Assembly (NCBI GenBank): GCA_017632535.1
Contig: JAGBRC010000019.1
Span: 1 to 48,684, forward strand
Source: Aeriscardovia sp.
Lineage (GTDB): Bacteria > Actinomycetota > Actinomycetes > Actinomycetales > Bifidobacteriaceae
Direction of reading: 5' to 3'
Length of the DNA stretch: 48,684 nucleotides
Numbering within the stretch: the stretch's first letter is position 1; the number at the start of each line of letters is the position of its first letter. The translations under genes and the position numbers were made by a program. This document shows positions 1 through 34,519 of the stretch, piece by piece. The notes below the pieces were generated by a model. It saw only the letters and a list, made by a program, of their open reading frames with translations, did not search any database and had not been told where the DNA came from.

Positions 1-45
1 TCCCTGACACGGAAGGGGTCGCAGGTCCGATTCCTGCATCGCCCA
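1..45 (+). tRNA. tRNA-Val (GAC), 5' part outside the window
   Basis: The window opens inside the anticodon stem. The visible loop is ctgacac, giving anticodon GAC, followed by stem ggaag, a five-base variable loop, the T arm and an acceptor strand atcgccc with discriminator A at 45. CCA is not encoded. From the anticodon stem onward it is almost identical to the tRNA-Val at 54-125, including the flanking ctttt. The T loop reads tccgatt, so position 55 is C instead of T (see findings). Confidence 0.9.
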
Positions 46-53
46 CTTTTTAA

Positions 54-125
54 GGGCGATTAGCGCAGCGGTAGCGCACTTCGTTCACACCGAAGGGGTC
101 GCAGGTCCGATTCCTGCATCGCCCA
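54..125 (+). tRNA. tRNA-Val (CAC)
   Basis: A complete 72-base cloverleaf: acceptor gggcgat pairs with atcgccc (118-124), D stem gcgc/gcgc with a short loop containing GG, anticodon stem cttcg/cgaag with loop ttcacac (anticodon CAC), variable loop gggtc, T stem gcagg/cctgc, discriminator A at 125. CCA is not encoded. It lies 8 bases after the tRNA-Val(GAC) and 54 bases before thrS. The T loop (106-112) is tccgatt, with C where position 55 is normally T. Confidence 0.95.
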
Positions 126-179
126 CTTTTCATATCTTCTTATAAGATTTTCATCTTCTAGTCGAGGAATGTCTTCATC

Positions 180-2174
180 ATGTCTCAATCTGGACAAGCA
201 AAAATCAAAGTCAACGGGTCAGAAGCCGAAGTGGATTTGCCTATCAAAGCCAAAGACGTACTTTCTGGCAGAGCTGGATGCGCGGCAGCGAGGATAAATG
301 GGCAAGTGAGGGACTGGTCTACTGAGCTCAAAGATGGAGATGAGGTGGAAGACATCGCCCCCGCATCTCAAGACGCCCTGAATATTATGCGCCATTCGGC
401 TGCCCATGTCATGGCCCAGGCTGTAACAGACCTCTACCCCGATGCAAAGCTCGGCGTAGGGCCTGTGATAGAGGACGGCTTCTATTACGACTTCGATGTA
501 GACAAGCCCTTCACCCCAGAAGATCTGGAGAAAATTGAAAAGAAGATGAAGGAAATCATTTCCCAGAAACAGAAGTTTGTCAGGAGGGAAGTGAACTTTG
601 AAGAGGCGCAGAAGGAAGAGGCTGACCAGCCTTATAAGCTTGAGCTGATAGAAGACAGAAAAGGCGAACCTCTGACAATGTACGACAATGTGGACAAATC
701 CGGAAAGACGGTCTGGAAGGATTTGTGCCGCGGCCCTCACATGCAGGATACTGGCAAAATTGGAGCAGTAAAGCTCCTTCGTACGGCATCGGCTTATTGG
801 AAGGGAAATGAAAAGAATCCCTCCATGCAGAGGATCTATGGCACGGCCTGGGCCACGAAAGAGGATTTGGAATCCTACCTCAAAATGCGCGAAGAGGTGG
901 CTAAAAGGGACCACAGGAAGATCGGAGAAGCGATGGATCTCTTCTCCTTCCCCTCCGAACTTGGGGCCGGCCTGGCCGTCTTCCACCCCAAAGGGGCGGC
1001 GGTAATTGAAGCCATGAAGGATTATTCCAGAGCTCAGCACCGCAGAAACGGCTATTCTTTTGTGCAGACTCCGCACGTTACCAAGGAAGATCTCTACAAA
1101 ACCTCCGGGCACCTCAATTGGTACGCAGATTCAATGTACCCCCCCATGCACTTAGACGAACTCAAGAATGCGGAGGGTGAGATTATAAGGCAGGCTCAGA
1201 ACTACTACCTAAAGCCCATGAACTGCCCCATGCACAACCTCATCTACATGTCCAGGCAACGGTCCTATAAAGAGCTTCCGCTTCGCCTGTTCGAGTTCGG
1301 CACGGTTTATAGGTATGAAAAGAGCGGGGAAGTGCAGGGCCTGACCCGGATGCGCGGTTTTACCCAAGATGACAGCCACATCTATTGCACCCCTGAACAG
1401 ATGGAGGAAGAGCTTTCGAATACCTTGAACTTCATCCTCGCCGTCCTCAGAGATTTTGGCCTCAAAGACTTTTATTTGGAGCTGTCTACCAAGAATCCGA
1501 ACAAGTATGTCGGATCTGACGAAGCGTGGGAAAAAGCCGAAAGCACCTTGCGCAAGGTAGCTGAGCAGTCGGGGCTCTCTTTGAAGCTGGATAAAGAGGG
1601 CGCGGCTTTTTATGGGCCGAAAATCTCTGTAGAAATAAAGGATGCCCTGGGAAGGTTCTGGCAGCTTTCCACGCTTCAGTTGGACTTCAACGAGCCGCGC
1701 TTGTTTGGGCTTGAATATGTCAGCCGCGAAGGGGAGCATAAAGAGCCCGTCATGATCCATAGAGCCCTTTTTGGATCCATTGAGCGCTTCTTTGCCATCC
1801 TTTTGGAACACTATGCGGGTGCCCTGCCGGCATGGCTCGCCCCCACTCAGGCCTTGCTCATCCCGGTTACCGAACAAAACGAAGGATATCTTTCAGATAT
1901 AGCTAAAGAACTTGAGGCTAGAGAAATCAGGGTGGAGAAAGATTTCTCTTCTGATAGATTCGGAAAGAAGATAAGGAACTCTGTGAACCTCAAGGCCCCC
2001 TTCGTACTCATCGCTGGCCCGAAGGACGAAGAGGAAGGCACCGTGAGCTTCAGGTTTAGAGACGGCACCCAACTGAATGGCATCCCCAAAGAGAAGGCAC
2101 TCTCTCTTATCGACAGGGCCTGCGGGGATAAAATTCAGGTTAATACCGCAGAGGATCTAAAATCGTACATGTAA
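180..2174 (+). CDS. thrS: Threonine--tRNA ligase
   Basis: Charges tRNA-Thr with threonine in the cytoplasm. The 664-residue protein has the full class II ThrRS layout: an N-terminal TGS domain (about 1-60), the SAD editing domain with HSAAH at 72-76 and CRGPH around 180, then the catalytic core with the zinc-site cysteine in MNCPMH, class II motif 2, and motif 3 in [12 protein letters not shown], followed by an anticodon-binding domain that starts near [12 protein letters not shown]. The ATG at 180 has a GAGGA Shine-Dalgarno 11 bases upstream; the ATG at 170 is out of frame. Length is normal for the family. No T-box leader is visible in the 54 bases after the tRNA. yebC follows after 21 bases. 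Identification is secure. Confidence 0.98.
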
Positions 2175-20121: not shown

Positions 20122-20196
<75 letters not shown>

Positions 20197-20297
20197 CAGG
20201 CAGTCTTTTCCGTCATTTGACGAGGGGCCGCTTTTATTTTTAATTGTGTTTAGCGCGGTTTTCCGATCCGGAAGGCCCAATTCAGGATGAGTGCGCC

Positions 20298-33329: not shown

Positions 33330-33729
33330 AGTAAAAGAGGGGCGCATAGCCGACTTCATACAGAGGACGGTGGCCACTGCCATAGAGAGGGATCTTAAAG
33401 ATCCGGCCCTCAGAAGCGTCACGGTGACGGAGGCCAGGGTAACTCCAGATCTGCACATGGCCTTCGTGTACTGGATATGCCCCGGAACAAGCCGCCTGGA
33501 AGCTAAAGAGGCTCTGGAGAGGGCAAAGGGGAAATTGAGGTCCCGAGTTGCGCGCGGGTGCGGCCTGAGAACTGCCCCTTCTTTGGATTTCCGCTACGAC
33601 GAACTTCAGGACAGGGCTATGAGAATAGAAGAAAAAATCGACGAAGCCTTGAGGGAAGACGAGAAGATGGAAGAGGAGAGCGCCGAAAAGGGCTTTGCCG
33701 GGGAAGAAAATCCTTATAAGGATGCCTGA
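33316..33729 (+). CDS. rbfA: 30S ribosome-binding factor RbfA
   Basis: Small KH-fold protein needed for late maturation of the 30S subunit and 16S rRNA 5' end. The 137-residue form from ATG 33316 shows [39 protein letters not shown] and [13 protein letters not shown], matching the family. An in-frame GTG at 33301 is a weaker start. The C-terminal ~30 residues are an acidic extension. It overlaps infB and truB in the common infB-rbfA-truB-ribF order. Confidence 0.93.
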
Positions 33730-34519
33730 GCCGGAATCGGGGGCGCTGTGTGTCTACAAGCCTCGCGGGGCGAGCAGCTTTGCGACTACGAGCGCGCTGC
33801 GGCATGAATTTTCTTTTAAAAAGGTCGGCCATGCCGGCACTTTGGACCCCCTGGCCGAAGGTCTTTTAATTTTAGGGTTTGGCCGCGGCACGAAGGCCCT
33901 GGGCTCCCTTCAGGGAATGAAGAAGACCTACAGGGCGGTTTTCGCCTTGGGGGCTGAAAGCTCCACAGAAGACGGGGAAGGGGATCTTTCGCCCCAAAGC
34001 GCCGCTCAGGCCTTAGCCGTACGGCGCCTTTCCTATAGGGCGCTGAAAAGAGCGGCTGAAAACTTTACCGGCAAGATAGATCAGATCCCCTCCCGCTTTA
34101 GCGCGGTGCATTTTGATGGCAAGAGGGCGTACGATCTGGCTCGCGCGGGAAAAAACTTCGACCTGGCGCCCAGAGAGGTAGAAATTTACTCTTTTACCAT
34201 CGGAAAAATGCGAAAGCTCCCCCTGGGCGGTGCGGGAAAAACTTTGAAAAAAGCGTGGCAGGGGCAGGCTGCCCTGTTGGAGTGCCAGGTTTCCTGCTCT
34301 AAAGGCACCTATATCCGCGCCTTGGCTCGAGATTTTGGCAGGGATCTGGGATGCGGAGCCTACCTGTTTTATCTGCAGCGTTCTGAAATCGGCCCCTTCT
34401 CCCTCAAAGACTGCGCACCCTGCAGGCTGGAGGGCAGGAAAGTTTACATAGACAGATCTTGGGCTATGGAAAAAATAATGGATCTTCCATCCCTTCAAAA
34501 GCGTTTGGACCGAAAATGA
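33722..34519 (+). CDS. truB: tRNA pseudouridine(55) synthase TruB
   Basis: Converts U55 in the T loop of elongator tRNAs to pseudouridine. The 265-residue protein has the catalytic loop VGHAGTLDPLAEGLLIL, with the nucleophilic Asp after GTL, and downstream motifs KTYRAVFALGAES, QIPSRFSAVHFDGKRAYDLA and CSKGTYIRALARDFG. The ATG at 33722 overlaps the rbfA stop; the upstream in-frame TTG at 33695 is less likely. It overlaps ribF by 4 bases. Two valine tRNAs in this window carry C at position 55 and cannot be TruB substrates there. Confidence 0.95.
   Translation: MPEPESGALCVYKPRGASSFATTSALRHEFSFKKVGHAGTLDPLAEGLLILGFGRGTKALGSLQGMKKTYRAVFALGAESSTEDGEGDLSPQSAAQALAVRRLSYRALKRAAENFTGKIDQIPSRFSAVHFDGKRAYDLARAGKNFDLAPREVEIYSFTIGKMRKLPLGGAGKTLKKAWQGQAALLECQVSCSKGTYIRALARDFGRDLGCGAYLFYLQRSEIGPFSLKDCAPCRLEGRKVYIDRSWAMEKIMDLPSLQKRLDRK

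Follow-up and report, generated by a model that had tools for sequence, protein, structure and literature searches.

The two tandem valine tRNA genes of an Aeriscardovia genome encode cytidine instead of uridine at position 55 of the T loop, and the same substitution recurs in many other tRNAs throughout the Bifidobacteriaceae. The reading that we favor, with a probability of roughly 0.7, is that C55 stays C, escapes the pseudouridine synthase TruB and is tolerated or nearly neutral, with position 55 now able to change between U and C in this family. Almost every tRNA has U55, and both U55 and pseudouridine-55 are treated as universal in reviews (PMC7912444). No report of C55 in Bifidobacterium was found in the open-licence literature.

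The window, i.e. the whole stretch of DNA analysed, is contig JAGBRC010000019.1 of Aeriscardovia sp. (GCA_017632535.1; 48,684 nt) and represents the entire contig C5 of genome G000, which comprises 620 kb in 34 contigs and probably belongs to a reduced-genome member of the Bifidobacteriaceae. It opens with the 3' part of tRNA-Val(GAC) (1..46, + strand), followed by tRNA-Val(CAC) (54..126, +) and thrS, encoding threonyl-tRNA synthetase (180..2174, +). The gene order Gly(GCC)-Cys-Val(GAC)-Val(CAC)-thrS is common to the window genome and to named Bifidobacterium and Alloscardovia loci, at which these tRNAs carry T55; the identity of ThrRS to that of Bifidobacterium, about 63%, underlies the assignment of the genome to the family. 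As originally predicted, both valine tRNAs have the T loop TCCGATT (26-32 and 106-112) between perfect GCAGG/CCTGC stems, with T54 at 26 and 106, C55 at 27 and 107, and C56 at 28 and 108. tRNA-Val(CAC) was called by both ARAGORN and Rfam (RF00005, 66.4 bits vs a gathering threshold of 29). It shares with canonical tRNA-Val the cloverleaf, the anticodon, perfect acceptor and T stems, G18G19, T54, C56, R57, A58 and the conserved place upstream of thrS, and differs in having C55 for U55, hence no pseudouridine-55 unless the base is edited. The third valine tRNA of the window, tRNA-Val(TAC) (20122..20198, +), and its Thr(CGT), Leu(TAG) and His tRNAs are normal in that all have T55, again in line with the prediction, although tRNA-Val(TAC) has C55 in the relative G006.

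Because the contig starts within the first tRNA, we considered whether C at bases 27 and 107 might be an artifact of sequencing or assembly. However, contig C4, which overlaps the window by 111 bp and carries the complete tRNA-Val(GAC) gene, also has C55. In addition, five of the six further genomes in the genus (G001-G005) have C55 in both valine genes; these were assembled separately and show the same spacing of the two genes as the window (79-80 bp). An error is thus ruled out for practical purposes. In the remaining genome, G006, both tandem valine tRNAs have T55, and base 55 is the sole difference between the valine tRNAs of G000 and G006. Consequently, no compensation is needed, which excludes a compensatory change inside the valine tRNA.

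The original prediction had also noted identical 3' halves in the valine pair, suggesting duplication or gene conversion. The identity is in fact wider: within each of the seven genomes, tRNA-Val(GAC) and tRNA-Val(CAC) are identical everywhere outside the anticodon arm. Between genomes the pair varies at positions 49, 55 and 65, with both copies changing together each time. The two valine genes of Bifidobacterium differ at many sites. The within-genome identity together with the joint change between genomes demonstrates that the pair evolves in concert and supports gene conversion as the probable process, by which base 55 would be kept identical in both copies.

To survey the genus, nearly every Rfam tRNA hit of the seven genomes (G000-G006) was fetched, and 291 tRNAs were scored. 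C55 was present in 32 of these, distributed over nine isoacceptors with 3-7 tRNAs per genome. Val GAC and Val CAC were affected in six of the seven genomes, Val TAC in G006, Gly GCC in G000, G001 and G004, Gly TCC in G003, Gly CCC in G001, and the initiator Met in G000 and G001. Thr GGT and a second CAT-anticodon tRNA, probably the elongator Met, had C55 in all six genomes in which they were found. Hence, the description as a peculiarity of two valine tRNAs was incomplete, as Gly-GCC and the initiator Met of the same genome and, as detailed below, the whole family share the change; an oddity specific to valine is excluded by its occurrence in other isoacceptors. In the tree based on thrS DNA, G006 is placed beside G002, G003 and G005 inside the genus (98/98), so the state of the valine tRNAs requires two gains, or one gain and a reversal. 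By parsimony, at least eight separate tRNA lineages appear to have changed, counting the tandem valine pair once. Neither A55 nor G55 occurred among the 291 tRNAs, C56 was present in all 291 and the G53-C61 pair in 290, and the D-loop GG was retained in all 32 C55 tRNAs. A general collapse of T-loop constraint is ruled out by the absence of A55 and G55 and the invariance of C56: a single site, position 55, varies, and solely between U and C. Two other tRNAs, Leu-tag of G005 and Ser-cga of G001, read GTTCGA. Separately, tRNA-Phe of G001-G006 (L153, L200, L213, L234, L277, L285) has the T loop ATCGTTC, in which A54 and U58 replace U54 and A58; the reverse-Hoogsteen pair is thereby swapped in all six genomes where this tRNA was found.

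The scan beyond the genus, which included controls, looked for a TAGC D arm linked to a C55-bearing T arm; the loose motif GGTCCRANNCC was too noisy, and the D-loop plus T-loop pattern was used in its place. The family of 121 genomes was taken as Bifidobacteriaceae, as judged from named relatives. The C55 pattern was found in 110 of these 121 genomes compared to 5 of 78 from the other families of the order, and the ratio of C55 to T55 hits was 218:2460 in the family and 6:1508 in the other families, counts that are not phylogenetically independent and include a few C55 hits that are not tRNAs (e.g. G142:C22). With the corresponding A/G55 pattern, eight hits were obtained in 199 genomes; judged by sequence, none was a tRNA, and the reversed control gave more. 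Genomes of the family outside the genus usually had 1-3 C55 tRNAs by the pattern. Among named Bifidobacterium, such tRNAs occur in scaligerum, platyrrhinorum, merycicum, ruminantium, pseudolongum, pluvialisilvae and primatium, and they occur also in Gardnerella greenwoodii, Gardnerella vaginalis and Alloscardovia omnicolens; in these named genomes, they are mostly tRNA-Thr(GGT). No C55 tRNA was found in L108, a termite-type MAG labelled Bifidobacteriaceae. One of eight named outsiders, Rarobacter faecitabidus, has a C55 tRNA (L398); this is likewise Thr(GGT), possibly a shared ancestral or a parallel change. An even draw across the phylum gave matches to the C55 pattern in 23 of 395 other genomes, 13 of them in one family, f28. 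The expectation that C55 is rare in general holds outside this clade. Several C55 tRNAs (Lys, Phe, Asn, CAT-anticodon) were observed in the genomes G288, G352 and G425 of f28, a second, unrelated family.

Loss of the modifying enzyme was rejected as the cause of C55. The window does encode truB, the tRNA pseudouridine-55 synthase, as predicted (33695..34519, +). Its product scores 190 bits against the NCBIfam TruB model (cut-off 151) and keeps the catalytic GHAGTLDP. PF01509 (TruB) is present in all Bifidobacteriaceae genomes tested, and the catalytic motif is kept in those aligned. TruB of the genus (window 33695-34519; L366-L371) has a shortened C-terminal part, without the C-terminal domain of other Bifidobacteriaceae, and a changed motif I, YKPRGxxSF. 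A different observation concerns f28, the second family in which C55 tRNAs cluster. At all 14 truB loci examined in this family (L336-L338, L347, L349, L353, L355, L356, L358, L361, L365, L382-L384), the N-terminal motif is in one frame and the catalytic part in another, the two being joined at a conserved run of nine T (ten once); the frame is restored by a single additional T or by a -1 shift. This arrangement looks like programmed slippage.

As to how C55 would be accommodated, we infer both that C persists in the mature tRNA and that it is tolerated by the elbow; the mature base at a gene-encoded C55 could alternatively be U or a modified C. A C55 tRNA would not be a TruB substrate and would thus be without pseudouridine-55. 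It would nevertheless fold and work because the elbow is held by the pairs G19-C56 (Watson-Crick) and U54-A58 and by the stack of intercalated G18/R57, while only the weak G18-U55 contact would be lost or rearranged. G18-Psi55 is a pair with a single hydrogen bond (PMC4810234). In tRNA-Pyl of Desulfitobacterium hafniense, a D-loop G contacts C55 and the molecule is still L-shaped (PMC7609411); that tRNA, however, lacks G18G19 and TPsiC and has a shortened D loop, whereas all else is canonical here. In the Bifidobacteriaceae, position 55 has probably become free to alternate between U and C, and with the position tolerated, U-to-C and C-to-U changes would recur in many tRNAs.

The strict restriction to U and C fits tolerance of C55 and RNA editing alike. 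In the latter case, an undiscovered cytidine deaminase would convert C55 to U, which would then be pseudouridylated. We know of no bacterial precedent of such editing. A precedent exists in Methanopyrus kandleri, in which C-to-U editing by CDAT8 takes place at base 8 in 30 tRNAs (PMC3695527). In both cases, several different tRNA genes encode cytidine where uridine is otherwise invariant, and many unrelated tRNAs are affected here as well; in the present case, the position is 55 instead of 8 and only a minority of tRNAs is concerned, and close relatives switch between C and T. We therefore regard editing as improbable. If true, it would permit a universal position to collect U-to-C mutations and would represent a bacterial equivalent of C8 editing in Methanopyrus. 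Another alternative is that C55 is adaptive, so that avoiding pseudouridine-55 in chosen tRNAs tunes folding, stability or translation. The presence of C55 in tRNA-Thr(GGT) of most listed family genomes suggests retention and would agree with this explanation, but C55 of Val, Gly and initiator Met tRNAs is gained or lost between close species, and neither compensatory nor codon-specific patterns were seen, which makes adaptation rather unlikely.

The original prediction had further raised weaker EF-Tu binding or a non-ribosomal job of the altered tRNAs, which our data do not support. A model is provided by the staphylococcal peptidoglycan tRNA-Gly species, which depart from the standard T loop and are extra, non-ribosomal copies. 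The T-loop change is a superficial feature shared with these tRNAs; here, principal decoders are changed and not extra copies. In each genome, one gene was found per valine anticodon, with no redundant copy beside a canonical gene, and in 15 window genes GUC, which is read by the GAC anticodon, and GUG account for 202 and 263 of 611 valine codons, respectively. The affected valine tRNAs must therefore serve the ribosome. As the T stems are normal, G18G19 and C56 are kept, and C55 is spread over Val, Gly, Thr and both initiator and elongator Met, adaptation to weak EF-Tu binding or a non-ribosomal role is very unlikely. The C55 tRNAs are best explained as ordinary, essential translation tRNAs that act as principal decoders.

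The findings have practical consequences for tRNA-finding and tRNA-sequencing pipelines that require GTTC, a motif used, with one mismatch allowed, in PMC6297222, a study that reports reads of Bifidobacterium in mouse gut samples. The valine tRNAs of G000 and G006 represent a natural experiment on base 55. If the RNA is edited, the family would harbor a new bacterial RNA-editing system. Whole genera of gut bacteria are without an encoded U55 in principal Thr, Val and Gly decoders and even in the initiator tRNA. Thus, common gut bacteria dispense with, or repair, a base that has been regarded as universal.
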